A program made the position numbers and the translations under genes. A stretch of DNA of 51,532 nt from Candidatus Levybacteria bacterium RIFCSPHIGHO2_01_FULL_41_15 (GTDB lineage Bacteria; Patescibacteriota; Microgenomatia; Levybacterales; UBA12049). How positions within the stretch are numbered: the stretch's first letter is position 1; each line of letters starts with the position of its first letter. Below, one piece after another: positions 27,622 through 43,288 of the stretch. The notes beneath the pieces are model-generated. The model saw only the letters and a program-made list of their open reading frames with translations, searched no databases and was not told the DNA's origin. The stretch spans positions 1 through 51,532 of the forward strand of contig MFNV01000010.1 of the NCBI GenBank assembly GCA_001782165.1. Direction: 5' to 3'.

Positions 27622-29994
27622 TTACTTTTTCTCGATGGTTTTGAGGGCTTCTTTTGCCTGGGCATCGGAAGATGAGATTTTATCTAAAATATAATTCATT
27701 TGATCTATTGATTTTTTAAGAAATTCTTTGTCGACAATATTCCCATTTTTGCCCTGCGCTTTTTGGTTATAAAAAAGCCCTAGGGCATATCGTGCGTCTC
27801 TGTAATCGGGTTTCATCCAGACTGTTCTCTCAAGCGCGGCGATGGCGCTGTCTATATTTCCGCTTTGTCCCTCAATAACGCCTAGGTTATAATTAATGCT
27901 TGCATCATTTGGAGAAAGGGCTTGTGCCTTTCTTGCCGCATCAAGAGCTTGAGGTAGCATAGAGGGATCAACCTGTGAAAGAGTGTAAAAAATTCTAATT
28001 CTAGTTTTTAAGAAGACAAAATTTTTAGGATACGAAGAGACCAAATTCGTATTTATTGAGATAGCTTCCTGGGAAAGATTTGAAGCAAGCTGGGCAGCTT
28101 GAGTTCCTGTCTGTGCATCTTTTTGGGAAAGAAGCGCAGCCGCATTCGCGGCGTTATTTATAGAATATTCGTCTCTAAAGACCGGCTCGCCCGGCCGAAG
28201 TGCCACAGCCTTTTGAAGATAGGGGAAAGCGTCCTGATAATATCCAACCCGGTCCAGGTTTGCTCCGTAAGCGTACGCCTTATCAGCATTCCAGTAAATT
28301 ATAAGATTGAAGATCAGGTAGAACGAAATTACTATGGTTACCAGAATTCCTGCCCATTGGAAAGGAGAAACCTGAAAATCTCTCAGGCTTTGAGGTTTTA
28401 GTCCCAACGTTTTAGGAATTTCAAAAACTTTTTGGTTGTCTATTAATTTCAAAAGAGAAAGAACAAAGGCGGGGATTAGGAAAAGATAAATATTTACTAT
28501 TACTACGGAAAAACCAAAGAAATTGGTTATTGAAATCGAGATATAAGAGGCAAGAAGACCCAGGACAATTAGGACATTTGACGATTGCCTTTGATCTATT
28601 AGGTTACGTATTGATATATAAAGGAAGTATCCAAGCATCAAAAGATAAGAGGAAAAACCAAGAACTCCCGAAGTCGCAAGGAGGTTTAGGAATTCATTGT
28701 GCGCTTTGTTGTAAAGAAAGTTCCATTCAGAAGTTAGATTGTGGGCCGGAAATTTATATTTATAATAGGCAAAAGCAAAGGTCTCAACTCCGGTTCCGAA
28801 GATCGGATTGTTTTTAAAGGCCTCAATCGCGCCTTTCCATACCAGAAGTCTTATCCTGGATGAATCCGTTCCGCCCAACTCTCCTAAGTGTTGGGGAGCA
28901 GGTTTGTTAACCTCTGTTTTGGCAGGAGGCGGAGGGGGAGAAAATTTTCCCCTTAAGCCATCATATGTCAGGGGTTTAAGAATTCCGAATGGCTGTCCTA
29001 TGAAAAAGGTGATGACAAAAATTATTATTAAAAAAACAGCCGGGATAGAAGACTGTATGCTTTTCCTTTGTAAATATAGGAAGGAAAGAAAGAGAAAGGC
29101 AAGAGTGATCCAAACAGCAAGAATTCCTGACCGAGATCTGGTATACAAAAGATCAATATAAAACAATATAAAAGATAAAAAATAAAAGGTAAAAATGGGT
29201 TTAACTTTTGATGGAACCGCGAATTTGTATTTTAAAATCCGAATTTGTTTGTTCAGATGGTCTTTTATTGAGATGACAAACATCGTAAGTGAGATCGGAA
29301 TAAGTATTGCAAGATAGGCAGAGAGCCAGTCGGGTTGTCCTAGGGTTGAGAAGATTCGAACTCTCGGCTGAAAATCTGCGGCCCAGCAGGAGACATCAAG
29401 ATTTCCGCGGAAAAGAAAACAGGTAGGATCATAGCCAAAGTGAGACGGAAGTCCCCAGAGCGAGACAATAAATCCGGTGATGAGACTGATATTTAAAACA
29501 CGTTTTACGGTGTGGGTGGCGGTATGACTGCTCGTATTGGTATCGTTTTCGTTTCTGTCGTACGTTTGACTACGACCCTTTACCATACCGGTTGCGAAAC
29601 CCTTTACCGATTGACCAAGCTGGGTGAAATTGTTGACAAATGCGTAATAGAGAAAAATATAAAGGATGGTTGAAAGAAGCCCGCCGTTGAAACGGGTGTA
29701 ATAGCCCCAAATCGAAACATGCCTGTCCCATGAGAAAATTGTCGATAGGATTTGAGAGGCAAAAAAAAGTAAAATCGGAATATCAAGGGGCGTTTTCTGA
29801 ATTTTAATTTGCCCCTCAAGAATAGATTTTATAGCCCACGAGGCAGCAATTACTATCCCAAGTCCGAAAGCCACCCACATTTTATTGAATTCAAAAAGCT
29901 CTGATGTGTCTCCGACTACTACAAGAGGGACAAGAAGGAAGAGAGCGTAGAAAGAAAACTCAATAATGCGACTGCAAATGTTGATTAACTTCAT
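27622..29994 (-). CDS. O-antigen ligase-like membrane protein with TPR tail
   Basis: 790 residues. About 12 transmembrane segments contain the Wzy_C/WaaL-type periplasmic region (SSRIRLLVWKGAIEAFKNNP, FGTGVETFAFAYYKY, AHNEFLNLLATSGVLG). The C-terminal ~230 residues are tetratricopeptide repeats (NYNLGVIEGQSGNIDSAIAA, ARYALGLFYN). It probably polymerises or ligates surface glycans, or O-glycosylates proteins such as the repeat adhesins. A hydrophilic insertion (GMVKGRSQTYDRNENDTNTS) sits between two membrane segments and looks like absorbed repeat DNA. Confidence 0.82.
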   Translation of the reverse strand: MKLINICSRIIEFSFYALFLLVPLVVVGDTSELFEFNKMWVAFGLGIVIAASWAIKSILEGQIKIQKTPLDIPILLFFASQILSTIFSWDRHVSIWGYYTRFNGGLLSTILYIFLYYAFVNNFTQLGQSVKGFATGMVKGRSQTYDRNENDTNTSSHTATHTVKRVLNISLITGFIVSLWGLPSHFGYDPTCFLFRGNLDVSCWAADFQPRVRIFSTLGQPDWLSAYLAILIPISLTMFVISIKDHLNKQIRILKYKFAVPSKVKPIFTFYFLSFILFYIDLLYTRSRSGILAVWITLAFLFLSFLYLQRKSIQSSIPAVFLIIIFVITFFIGQPFGILKPLTYDGLRGKFSPPPPPAKTEVNKPAPQHLGELGGTDSSRIRLLVWKGAIEAFKNNPIFGTGVETFAFAYYKYKFPAHNLTSEWNFLYNKAHNEFLNLLATSGVLGFSSYLLMLGYFLYISIRNLIDQRQSSNVLIVLGLLASYISISITNFFGFSVVIVNIYLFLIPAFVLSLLKLIDNQKVFEIPKTLGLKPQSLRDFQVSPFQWAGILVTIVISFYLIFNLIIYWNADKAYAYGANLDRVGYYQDAFPYLQKAVALRPGEPVFRDEYSINNAANAAALLSQKDAQTGTQAAQLASNLSQEAISINTNLVSSYPKNFVFLKTRIRIFYTLSQVDPSMLPQALDAARKAQALSPNDASINYNLGVIEGQSGNIDSAIAALERTVWMKPDYRDARYALGLFYNQKAQGKNGNIVDKEFLKKSIDQMNYILDKISSSDAQAKEALKTIEKK

Positions 29995-30212: not shown

Positions 30213-30470
30213 CTATTTATAAATCGAATGGGTTCCGACCGAATGAAACCATATAATGTCTTTCTCTGCAAATTCGAAAATAATTCTATGCTGATAATCT
30301 ATAGAAAATGAATAGTAATCTTTTAGTTTTCCCGTAAGCTTATGTGTTTTAAGTCTTGGATCGTGTGGGTTTTTGCGAAAAATTTTTTCTCTCTTCTCGG
30401 CGGCAAGTTTTATTTTAAGAGGTAATCGCTTATATTCCTTAGCAAATTTACTAGAATAGTAGATTTTCAT
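30213..30470 (-). CDS. RelE/ParE-superfamily toxin (YafQ/YoeB-like)
   Basis: 85 residues. The layout is typical: KIYYSSKFAKEYKRLP helix, a basic middle (KTHKLTGKLKDYYSFSID), then YQHRIIFEF and a C-terminal HSVGTHSIYK with the conserved His-x-x-x-Tyr end of mRNA interferases. It most likely cleaves ribosome-bound mRNA. It follows an RHH-type antitoxin gene by 8 nt. Confidence 0.88.
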   Translation of the reverse strand: MKIYYSSKFAKEYKRLPLKIKLAAEKREKIFRKNPHDPRLKTHKLTGKLKDYYSFSIDYQHRIIFEFAEKDIIWFHSVGTHSIYK

Positions 30471-30478
30471 TCACTAAA

Positions 30479-30694
30479 TTAACGAAGAGAGGAAAGGGAT
30501 TTGAGAAGTTTTCCTTTGCCCATCTTAAGTTCTTGTCTGCTTTTTTCAAGTTCTTTTGCCAAATTTCCCTCATGCCAAAGACGGAGTAAATGTCTAAAAA
30601 ATTCACTTTTGCTAGCATATTTACCCTTGGCAACTTCATTTTCTACAATAGAAGTTAGTTGATGCGGTAATGAAATGTTTATAACAGTTCTCAT
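30479..30694 (-). CDS. Ribbon-helix-helix antitoxin (ParD/CopG type)
   Basis: 71 residues from the ATG at 30694 (MRTVINISLPHQL); an upstream in-frame ATG overlaps the -10 box and is rejected. The N-terminal ribbon (TVINISLP) and helices (SIVENEVAKGKYASKSEFFRHLL) form the DNA-binding dimer, and the C-terminal tail (ELEKSRQELKMGKGKLLKSL) wraps the toxin. It should repress its own promoter through the inverted repeat at 30694-30712. Confidence 0.85.
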   Translation of the reverse strand: MRTVINISLPHQLTSIVENEVAKGKYASKSEFFRHLLRLWHEGNLAKELEKSRQELKMGKGKLLKSLSSLR

Positions 30695-30712
30695 GTAACA
30701 CATTGTATTACA
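30694..30712. promoter_or_regulatory. Autoregulatory operator of the antitoxin (predicted)
   Basis: TGTAACACAtTGTATTACA, 9-bp arms with one mismatch, covering the -10 box and start codon. Well placed for repression by the RHH antitoxin. Confidence 0.6.
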
Positions 30713-30731: not shown

Positions 30732-30740
30732 GTGCACTCT

Positions 30741-30752
30741 TATACTAGTATA
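30741..30752. promoter_or_regulatory. TrpR-like operator, site 3
   Basis: TATACTAGTATA, a 12-bp palindrome 10 bp upstream of the toxin-antitoxin -35 box. It matches the core of the palindromes around the TrpR-family gene at 42820. Confidence 0.5.
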
Positions 30753-31019
30753 TTGGTAAACATGGGGAATAAGAAGTTTTAAAAGCAGAAGATAAAAATA
30801 TCAGACTAAAGAAGTATCGAACGAAAGTTGGGAAGGGCAAGAAGAATAAAGCTATTTGAGGGCATCTTCGAGGTTCAACCTTGATAAGGTTTTTGAAAAG
30901 GTTAATTAACAGATTGGTGAAATTCTGTCTCGTACAGCATTACGCTATAGCGTAGGTTTGTAACAAGAACAAAACACATTTAATATGTTACTACTATATT
31001 TTGAGTCGAATCTCAAAAA
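30753..31019. other. Gap with no recognised gene
   Basis: Between the toxin-antitoxin promoter and the end of the next gene I see only AT-rich, stop-dense sequence and a short GCTATAGC palindrome near 30947. No tRNA, terminator or ORF could be supported. Confidence 0.5.
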
Positions 31020-32649: not shown

Positions 32650-33786
32650 ATGTTTGATAAACTTTTCAGTCTTTTTTCATACGATATTGGGATAGATTTG
32701 GGTACTGCAAATACTCTTGTCTTTGTTAAGGGTAAGGGAATTGTTATAAGAGAGCCTTCGGTTGTTGCGATACATAAGAAGACAAAAAAAATAATATCGA
32801 TCGGGACAGAAGCCAAAAAAATGCTGGGTAAAACCCCTGCGACAATTCTGATAGTAAAACCTCTTCGGGGAGGAGTAATTGCCGACTTTGATGCTACAGC
32901 AAAAATGATATCATACTATATCCAATCAGTACATCAGGTTGGAAATATTCTGCCTGCCGCGTGGTCCAAGCCCAAGGTAGTAATAGGTATCCCCTCGGCT
33001 GTAACAGAAGTTCAAAGACGAGCGGTTTGGGAGGCGGCACTGTCTGCCGGCGCAAGGGAAGCGTTCCTTATCGAGGAACCTATGGCAGCGGCAATCGGGG
33101 AGGAGATTTCGGTTTTTTCTCCAACTGGATCAATGATAGTGGATATTGGAGGAGGGACGACCGAGATTGCTGTAATATCTCTTGGGGGAATTGTGTTGAG
33201 TAAATCTTTTCTTGCCGCAGGGGATGAGATGGACCGGGCAATATCGCACTATATAAGGCTAAGACACGGTTTGCTTTTGGGTGAAAAAACAACCGAGGAG
33301 GTAAAACTTAAGATCGGAAGCGCATCAGAGAGTAAATTCAAAATTCAAAAGGCAAAAATCAAAAGCGAAAATGAGAAAAACGAAGATGAAAGTCACGGCG
33401 AGAAGTTTAATCCTGTGCAACTTAGAGAGAAGGTTGCGGTTGTGAGAGGGAGAGATATAGAGACTGGATTTCCCAAGAGTCTTAAGGTTACAGAGGTTGA
33501 GGTAAGAGAAGCTCTTGCCCCGGTCGTCTCAGAGATTATAGAAGGGATTTCCGATGCTTTGGAAGATGCACCCCCTGAGCTTGTCTCGGATATACTCGAG
33601 CATGGGATACTCTTAACAGGAGGAGGATCACTTCTTCCGGGGATAGAAGATATTATAGCTGAGAGGACCCGTATTCCTGTTATAAAGTCAGAAGACCCTC
33701 TTACCAGTGTGGTGAAGGGTACCGGGAAAGTGCTTGAAGACGAATCGCTTCTTGAAAGAGTCAAAGTCATCGGCGGCCTGAAATAA
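32650..33786 (+). CDS. mreB: Rod-shape-determining actin homologue MreB
   Basis: 378 residues. Actin-fold nucleotide motifs are intact: DIGIDLGTANTLVFVKGKGI (phosphate 1), VDIGGGTTEIAVISLGGIV (phosphate 2) and GILLTGGGSLLPGIEDII (adenosine). It polymerises under the membrane and directs wall synthesis. After KLKIGSASES an insertion of ~35 residues (KFKIQKAKIKSENEKNEDE) is present, encoded by AT-rich DNA like the dispersed filler repeats. First gene of mreB-mreC-mreD-PBP2. Confidence 0.96.
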   Translation: MFDKLFSLFSYDIGIDLGTANTLVFVKGKGIVIREPSVVAIHKKTKKIISIGTEAKKMLGKTPATILIVKPLRGGVIADFDATAKMISYYIQSVHQVGNILPAAWSKPKVVIGIPSAVTEVQRRAVWEAALSAGAREAFLIEEPMAAAIGEEISVFSPTGSMIVDIGGGTTEIAVISLGGIVLSKSFLAAGDEMDRAISHYIRLRHGLLLGEKTTEEVKLKIGSASESKFKIQKAKIKSENEKNEDESHGEKFNPVQLREKVAVVRGRDIETGFPKSLKVTEVEVREALAPVVSEIIEGISDALEDAPPELVSDILEHGILLTGGGSLLPGIEDIIAERTRIPVIKSEDPLTSVVKGTGKVLEDESLLERVKVIGGLK

Positions 33787-41984: not shown

Positions 41985-42740
41985 TTACTGCGCCGGGCAG
42001 GATGCGAATTCGCAGTCTGGTCCTTCTCTCCCCACATATGATCCATCCGGACACAGTTTTACCTCTTGAGTACATGCTACTGGTTCAGTCGAATCGAGGA
42101 ATTTGAAAGTGGGAATTATTTTTTCTAGAACATTTTTCGCAGATTCCTCTGTTTCTTTCGACGCCGAGGAACCTATTTGATACGTGGTTGCCATAAGGAT
42201 AAAGGTTTTATCGCCCTTTACGAACTCTTTATAGGTAAAGGGTGTATAGTTTTTCTGCCACTGCGGGGCAATTTTTGCTGTTTCGAATATATGAACGGAG
42301 ATAAGAGCAGGTTTTTCACCGACTGGTGTTTTGGTATCAGAAAATGTTAAAATACTCTCTTCCTCTATGATTCTCCAATCGGAAGGATACTTTAATGAGA
42401 ACCCATATGTAGAATCTTCATATGTTTTCCAATTTGCGGTTTCATCGGCTGAGGTTCCCGCCTTCGCTGAAGCTTCGGTGGGTAAGGGAGTTGGAGTAAC
42501 TTTAGAAGCTTGTTTACTTTTGGAATTTAGGGCAAGATATGTACCGCCGGCGGCAAGGATTAAAATTAAGAAAACTAAAGCTAGGATCAGTCCTTTTGGC
42601 AGAAAAGATTTTTTGGAAACTGAAGCTGTTGGAGGAGTAAAATTTGTTGGAGCTTGAGGAATTTGTGCAGAGACGTTATTTTGAGAACTATTATCCAAGG
42701 CATTATTTTGTATGTTTGGTTTTACACTTTGATTTTCCAC
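41985..42740 (-). CDS. Membrane-anchored PsbP-like protein with Cys-rich tail
   Basis: 251 residues, GTG start at 42740. A disordered N-terminus (~50 residues) precedes one transmembrane helix (GLILALVFLILILAAGGTYL), a Thr/Pro linker and a PsbP-like domain (YGFSLKYPSDWRIIEEES ... VLEKIIPTFKFL). The tail CPDGSYVGREGPDCEFASC is a small Cys-rich motif common on CPR secreted proteins. The linker PLPTEASAKAGTSADE is encoded by a GC-rich palindrome. A CTAG-centred palindrome lies just upstream of its promoter, so the TrpR-like regulator next door probably controls it. Confidence 0.7.
   Translation of the reverse strand: MENQSVKPNIQNNALDNSSQNNVSAQIPQAPTNFTPPTASVSKKSFLPKGLILALVFLILILAAGGTYLALNSKSKQASKVTPTPLPTEASAKAGTSADETANWKTYEDSTYGFSLKYPSDWRIIEEESILTFSDTKTPVGEKPALISVHIFETAKIAPQWQKNYTPFTYKEFVKGDKTFILMATTYQIGSSASKETEESAKNVLEKIIPTFKFLDSTEPVACTQEVKLCPDGSYVGREGPDCEFASCPAQ
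42456..42483. repeat. GC-rich palindrome in a coding linker
   Basis: CCCGCCTTCG on the left and CTTCGGTGGG on the right, around ctgaag. It is translated in frame as part of the linker between membrane helix and PsbP-like domain. Confidence 0.65.
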
Positions 42741-42775: not shown

Positions 42776-42786
42776 GCAACACTTCA

Positions 42787-42812
42787 TTACTAATATACTA
42801 GTATAATAGTAA
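42787..42812. promoter_or_regulatory. TrpR-like operator, site 2
   Basis: A 26-bp palindrome with left half TTACTAATATACT and one mismatch, centred on CTAG. It starts 12 bp upstream of the -35 box of the PsbP-like gene, nearly the same distance as site 3 from its promoter. Confidence 0.7.
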
Positions 42813-42819
42813 TTGGTGA

Positions 42820-43251
42820 TTAATCCCAATTCCCAGAGGCAAACTTTGCCCTTGCTTTCATATTTGTTTTTGATTTTAGAGCAAGATCAACTGGTTTTAA
42901 TATTTTTCCTATCTTCTTGAAAAAATTGATTACATTTTCTCTTTTCAAAAGCTTTTCTATGGTTTGGTGAAAAGAAGAGTTTTTGTATTTGAGCTGGTTC
43001 TGGTACGTTCGGACAGTTTCATAGCTAACATGAAGAGCAGATTGAATAGAGTCAGGAAGGAAGCCTCTTTTAAGCATCATAAAAAGAACCAACCGCTTTG
43101 TTAACATGATTTTTTCCTCTTTTGTCAGAAATTCCTCAAAAAAATTTTCAATCTCATTCGCATTGGTTAAAGATGATACAAGGAAAGCAAAATGCTCTTT
43201 TATTTCTTGAAGTTGATTTTGACTAAGATGAAATTTAGAAATTCTGGTCAT
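42820..43251 (-). CDS. TrpR/YerC-family transcriptional regulator
   Basis: 143 residues. The middle matches the TrpR-like fold: FFEEFLTKEEKIMLTKRLVL (helices B-C) and a helix-turn-helix RGFLPDSIQSALHVSYETVR. The residues after ~105 (RENVINFFKKIGKILKPVDL) form an extra basic tail. E. coli TrpR binds CTAG-containing palindromes; here a perfect 32-bp palindrome centred on CTAG overlaps this gene's own promoter, with variants upstream of two other genes. It is probably an autoregulated repressor; the ligand, if any, is unknown. Confidence 0.82.
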   Translation of the reverse strand: MTRISKFHLSQNQLQEIKEHFAFLVSSLTNANEIENFFEEFLTKEEKIMLTKRLVLFMMLKRGFLPDSIQSALHVSYETVRTYQNQLKYKNSSFHQTIEKLLKRENVINFFKKIGKILKPVDLALKSKTNMKARAKFASGNWD

Positions 43252-43282
43252 AAATACTAATATACTAGTATATTAGTATTTA
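43251..43282. promoter_or_regulatory. TrpR-like operator, site 1 (perfect palindrome)
   Basis: A perfect 32-bp palindrome; each half reads TAAATACTAATATACT. It fills the spacer and -10 of the regulator's own promoter and touches the start codon, an ideal autorepression geometry. Confidence 0.8.
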
Positions 43283-43288
43283 TGTCAA
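43265..43288 (-). promoter_or_regulatory. Promoter of the TrpR-like gene
   Basis: Minus strand TTGACA followed at 17-18 nt by GTATAT/TATATT within the palindrome; the ATG is about 8 nt after, so leaderless. The -10 position is less certain because of the repeats. Confidence 0.5.

Follow-up and report, generated by a model that had tools for sequence, protein, structure and literature searches.

A TrpR-type regulator gene between two palindromes

The window, i.e. the whole 51,532-nt stretch of DNA analysed here, is contig C10 of G000, a 728-kb genome with a completeness of 98.6%. It carries a gene for a regulator of the TrpR family with a long palindrome at either end and, 12 kb away, a short sequence related to these palindromes next to a toxin-antitoxin pair (Table 1).

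Table 1. Features of the window discussed in the text.
Feature	Position	Strand	Remarks
TrpR-family regulator gene	42820..43251	-	143 aa, long form with C-terminal extension; PF01371
Perfect 36-bp palindrome (5′ bracket, probable auto-operator)	43249..43284	.	overlaps start codon, -10 box and 2 nt of -35 box
-35 box of regulator promoter, TTGACA	43283..43288	-	perfect TTGACA
-10 box of regulator promoter, TATATT	43259..43264	-	inside the palindrome
28-bp near-palindrome (site 2, 3′ bracket)	42786..42813	.	6 nt past the regulator stop codon
Downstream neighbour, PsbP-like lipoprotein-type gene	41985..42740	-	differs from the gene downstream of the G038 ortholog
Short core TTATACTAGTATAT (site 3)	30740..30753	.	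mreB–O-antigen ligase slot; possible relic or weak site
Toxin-antitoxin pair	30213..30703	-	YafQ-like toxin and RHH/ParD-like antitoxin, downstream of site 3

The regulator protein matches PF01371 (Trp_repressor) with an E-value of 2.9e-9 and 37.3 bits, above the curated cut-off of 27, and the same profile is matched by all 30 long-form relatives that were aligned. Its score against TIGR02531 (YerC/YecD equivalog), 23.3 bits, lies below the cut-off of 42.2. An AlphaFold2 model built from 30 relatives (mean pLDDT 89.4) retrieved TrpR structures as top Foldseek matches (6fal, 1jhg and 1trr; probability 1.00, best E-value only 0.013), and the structures matched include E. coli TrpR and TrpR-like proteins of S. 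aureus and Eubacterium. With a TM-score of 0.82, normalised to 6fal, the 143-aa protein is predicted to have the TrpR fold with its helix-turn-helix. Profile and fold match thereby bear out the family assignment of an earlier, sequence-only reading of this DNA. No link of the regulator to trp genes was visible.

On the gene strand the regulator promoter reads TTGACA-18 bp-TATATT, and the ATG begins 7 nt past the -10 box. The sequence-only reading had described a perfect 32-bp palindrome over this -10 box; the palindrome is real and covers the box, but it is 36 bp long (CATAAATACTAATATACTAGTATATTAGTATTTATG) and includes the ATG. Its half-length of 18 compares with a maximum of 11 for perfect palindromes in 60 Markov-simulated windows. 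The sequence is composed of CTAA-TATA-CTAG-TATA-TTAG, i.e. three CTAG-like units at 8-bp spacing, and its self-identity at shift 8 is 0.71. Because the palindrome extends from the edge of the -35 box to an ATG only 7 nt behind the -10 box, it is probably an auto-operator and the mRNA is probably leaderless. An ortholog with 67% identity, in genome G038, shares the core palindrome and has the same layout, with TACCACTAATATACTAGTATATTAGTGGTA spanning TTGACA to ATG. Autorepression, as proposed earlier, is thus well supported by the position of the palindrome and by its recurrence in the ortholog: we regard it as highly likely, and judging from sequence the regulator is even more likely to bind its own brackets.

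The palindrome on the other side of the gene, site 2 (ATTACTAATATACTAGTATAATAGTAAT; 94% complementary), had been taken for a 26-bp near-palindrome 12 bp upstream of the -35 box of the neighbouring envelope gene. It is likewise real, but measures 28 bp, and the TTGACA of the neighbour's putative promoter follows at a distance of 10 nt. What had been overlooked is that the regulator's own stop codon immediately precedes site 2, an arrangement that recurs in relatives. The regulator gene is bracketed by two palindromes, and site 2 is the 3′ one; since its distance from the next gene would also suit a promoter site, it may have a second role there. G000 contains a second long-form TrpR gene (C9:7457-7831), which is bracketed by another palindrome.

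Bracketing is a trait of the long-form subfamily

Homologs from 60 related genomes were fetched together with their flanks, and the identity between 5′ and 3′ flank was scored, with a threshold of at least 12. This threshold was reached by 37 of 60 non-redundant homologs, compared to 3.3% of 600 mismatched 5′/3′ pairs; about a third of the relatives lack a detectable 3′ copy, which counts against the bracketing reading. In the bracketed relatives, one repeat lies over the gene start, ending at a median of 6 nt ahead of the ATG, and an equal repeat directly follows the stop codon, starting at a median of 2 nt past it and at times overlapping it. A perfect TTGACA is present at 32.5% of the loci (1.25% of shuffles), and the -10 box falls within the repeat at 21 of 40 loci. 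The palindromes are wholly different between clades (e.g., GATTTAAATC, ATTATTCGAATAAT and TCTAATNATNTNAATNATTAGA types) and matched within each locus. In the G208 ortholog, where the recognition helix is nearly identical, the 3′ palindrome overlaps the stop codon. A scan of named genome contigs returned one relative, JANWIQ010000014.1 (a Candidatus Paceibacterota MAG), as the nearest named one; its trpR gene is bracketed by TGTCCAATATATTGGTATAT... on both flanks. This relative and the small genome size are the grounds for placing G000 with the Patescibacteria. No relative was found by tblastn in IMG/VR contigs, and viral carriage of the family was rejected on this ground.

The bracket repeats show an 8-bp periodicity, with a self-identity at shift 8 that is the highest of shifts 3-12 (z=10.2 versus symmetric shuffles). 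TrpR half-sites carry an eight-base-pair spacer, as quoted in PMC9413887. Since 8 bp is the TrpR register, the periodicity links the repeats with a DNA-binding protein of the TrpR type, and the CTAG-centred palindrome of the window sustains the earlier description of a CTAG-bearing, TrpR-like operator. Palindrome similarity tracks protein similarity among the relatives (Mantel r=0.63, 0/5000 permutations). The helix-turn-helix covaries with the palindrome no more strongly than the N-terminus does, so that shared ancestry may explain this correlation.

As a short-form control we used the best 30 PF01371 matches of a phylum-wide sample, mostly about 85-123 aa long. The short YerC/TrpR-type proteins among them are unbracketed, with 1 doubtful case of 29, and the sole 172-aa form in the set scores 32. 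Thus, bracketing is a trait of the long-form subfamily and not of TrpR proteins as such.

Several short TrpR-type genes of the same lineage (L035, L037, L038, L070 and L273; 84-96 aa) carry a AGTATACTAGTA-like site, at their 5′ end only, so that, where a genome lacks the long form, some of its CTAG sites may belong to such genes. One type-1 trpR homolog (L014, G043:C22:16420) lacks brackets, breaks off within its recognition helix and is probably decaying; its genome keeps two perfect solo palindromes of its type.

Bracketed genes stand in different chromosomal slots

Orthologs of the regulator occupy at least six gene contexts. They adjoin different conserved genes in G000, G038, G022 (M50 peptidase/rpmB/fmt), G014 (rpsG/fusA), G208 (an rplA-like gene) and JANWIQ010000014.1 (a recF-like gene); the names of these neighbours were partly assigned by reading sequence. 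The gene backbone is stable while the positions of the orthologs relative to it differ. Conversely, depending on the genome, the rpsG-fusA, ftsX-envC and alaS slots are filled by TrpR genes that belong to different subfamilies and point in opposite directions. We consider the odds somewhat better than even that the bracketed gene relocates in the manner of a cassette. No empty site was found at nucleotide resolution, because the flanks diverge too fast, and a mobilising enzyme for the bracketed unit was likewise not found: none of 30 family proteins scanned contains a transposase or recombinase domain, including Y1/HUH.

A RAYT/Y1 transposase gene does lie at the G022 ortholog (L012, G022:C10:16964-18229). 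It is inserted near the 3′ end of trpR, has duplicated about 30 bp of the trpR coding end, and the original 3′ bracket now lies behind it. Being a secondary insertion, it was rejected as the mobilising enzyme.

Three further observations concern these neighbourhoods. The rpsG-fusA interval (L120-L149) is variable in the lineage, the two genes being adjacent or separated by different small genes or TrpR cassettes. The trpR loci L022 (G023:C18) and L024 (G015:C20) are identical including neighbour genes in genomes assigned to different genera, reflecting either contig cross-binning or recent transfer. Reverse transcriptase genes are present in L008 (G000:C9:73036-74064) and L084 (G022:C2); that of G000 adjoins a small helical ORF which could encode a DGR accessory protein.

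Solo copies lie mostly at gene ends and inside genes

Genome-wide pattern searches, with reversed patterns as controls, detected between 0 and 3 further near-exact copies per bracketed type and genome, and almost none for the controls, giving totals of 2-5 copies per genome and type. We classified 32 copies by mechanical ORF calls. Half of them (16) lie over a stop codon or within tens of bases after one, many between convergent genes; 9 are inside a long ORF, and of the 7 located elsewhere one or two are promoter-like. Two congeneric species (L158, L159) share a conserved solo site that follows the same gene of 111/113 aa. We also considered metG, which adjoins several family members, as a conserved target and rejected it, as a qualifying trpR-type palindrome is missing upstream of this gene in 27 of 30 genomes.

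Asymmetric letters of the bracket copies are common to the solo copies; in G059, for example, five copies are identical over all specified bases. These shared letters suggest that the solo copies arose by copying. However, simple insertion was rejected for the copies inside the genes fmt and murI, the latter a 26-bp perfect palindrome: both proteins align to PDB homologs through the site essentially without gaps. These two observations pull apart; recombinational replacement and selection on binding sites are both conceivable.

The alternative that survives best, doubtful as it is, sees the palindrome itself as a REP-like mobile unit, the trpR-like gene as its helper, and the solo copies as dispersed copies or as scars of lost cassettes. 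Besides the copied asymmetric letters, the scatter of orthologs over slots and the sharing of single slots by different subfamilies in opposite orientation, the excess of direct over inverted brackets (19 versus 7, p=0.03) is in its favour, as is the case of G014, where the window's core is present as a perfect solo copy although the ortholog of this genome has a different palindrome. The resemblance to REP/RAYT systems (PMC2817692, PMC3116915) extends to a gene flanked by palindrome copies and to dispersed copies often located at gene 3′ ends. In contrast to REP/RAYT, the protein here is a TrpR-type binder without a Y1/HUH domain, each subfamily has its own palindrome, the copies of a genome are 2-5 rather than >100, far below REPs, and those copies inside genes that were tested did not arise by insertion. 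The RAYT gene beside the G022 ortholog, a later arrival that duplicated the trpR end, also argues against this alternative.

Sites upstream of neighbouring genes

The sequence-only reading had placed a 12-bp core 10 bp upstream of the -35 box of the toxin-antitoxin operon. This core (TATACTAGTATA, 30741-30752, within site 3) is present, but lies 9 nt upstream of the TTGACA. It occurs three times in the window and in none of 60 simulations. In the window, mreB (32650-33786) and the O-antigen ligase gene (27622-29994) flank site 3 and the toxin-antitoxin pair, and in G038 the ortholog of the regulator stands between the mreB neighbourhood and the O-antigen ligase gene. As site 3 occupies the slot where G038 carries a bracketed trpR gene, i.e. 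the slot used by the sister lineage, it may be a relic.

A less probable alternative, which we regard as unlikely, is that the protein is an ordinary TrpR-like autorepressor with two further targets, the envelope gene and the distant toxin-antitoxin operon, which it would control from upstream sites, perhaps as an activator. Consistent with this, sites 2 and 3 each precede a TTGACA box, by 10 and 9 nt respectively, TATACTAGTATA is rare, with four occurrences in the 728-kb genome by pattern search, and one solo copy (L278) lies between divergent starts. However, the 3′ position is a rule of the family whatever the direction of the next gene: the 3′ copy is kept even where the next gene runs convergently, as it does at 11 of 40 bracketed loci, so that this copy cannot generally be the operator of the next gene. 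Moreover, the downstream gene differs between G000 and G038, most solo copies are found within genes or at their 3′ ends, and site 3 is just a 14-bp core in the slot of an ortholog's bracketed gene. A regulon activated from upstream sites, as put forward from the sequence, is thus not supported, given that site 2 is the 3′ bracket and site 3 lies in the sister's trpR slot. The predicted promoter placement fares no better: full-length outlying copies are found after stops, between convergent genes and inside genes, close to the scattered distribution that had been named as evidence against the proposal. The PsbP-like gene or the toxin-antitoxin pair might be activated, though the comparison of relatives lends this no support.

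It is very improbable that the 3′ palindromes are merely RNA hairpin terminators unrelated to the protein: like terminators they closely follow stop codons, but their sequence is an almost exact and clade-specific copy of the 5′ operator, they have no loop and no clear T-tract at the sites read, and they are absent from short TrpR relatives.

A proposed relocating gene between copies of its own operator

We favour, with a probability of roughly 0.6, the interpretation that the window gene is a member of a long-form (about 130-190 aa) TrpR-type family of Patescibacteria, and that the gene and the copies of its own operator that bracket it form a cassette that relocates. In this model, a stack of protein dimers would occupy each long palindrome, and the 5′ copy would serve to shut off the leaderless promoter of the gene itself. 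Additional binding would take place at the 3′ copy and at the few solo copies, where bound protein would most likely block RNA polymerase at gene ends rather than activate promoters; for such a roadblock role of the 3′ copy we would give somewhat less than even odds. The bracketed gene would be inherited and relocated as a unit.

The system resembles E. coli TrpR in its fold, its CTAG-centred palindromes, the 8-bp register and the predicted autorepression over its own promoter, and differs from it by the C-terminal extension of the protein, longer operators of 28-36 bp and a second copy behind the gene. HisR/YerC, another member of the family, has palindromic operators, with a candidate auto-operator at nearly half of the hisR genes (PMC9413887). 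The site of one bracketed relative (L021, CACTTTA...TAAAGTG) resembles the HisR consensus cacTTTAnnnnnnTAAAgtg and is 8 bp longer. Reported HisR sites lie upstream of his genes and of hisR, and not behind the gene (PMC9413887). In contrast, the window protein scores under the TIGR02531 cut-off, its site is also found behind the gene, and no his target is seen here; a his gene was recognised beside none of the listed palindrome sites, whose neighbours are annotated in part. Stoperators of Cluster A mycobacteriophages (PMC9283540, PMC6550527) offer a parallel in site placement, with repressor sites at the own promoter and dispersed away from promoters, at which elongation might be halted. They are asymmetric and numerous and lie in phage genomes, whereas the sites of the window family are palindromic, few and chromosomal.

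We found no earlier report of CPR TrpR proteins or their operators in the open-access literature, whose coverage leaves out most subscription journals. Knowledge of the regulators and operators of Patescibacteria (CPR) is scant. In the long-form family, the gene alone predicts both ends of its recognition site, and the family offers many natural protein-operator pairs of one fold that are suited to reading the TrpR-type recognition code. For regulon calls this means that a palindrome which precedes a neighbouring gene may in fact be the regulator's own tail bracket. More tentatively, Patescibacteria could harbor minimal selfish or regulatory cassettes that consist only of a TrpR-type gene between its own palindromes, and that relocate among conserved slots, swap subfamilies, leave solo copies behind and co-diversify in palindrome and protein, with no transposase of their own. 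If relocation is confirmed, this would be a mobile unit built on a repressor and not on a transposase.
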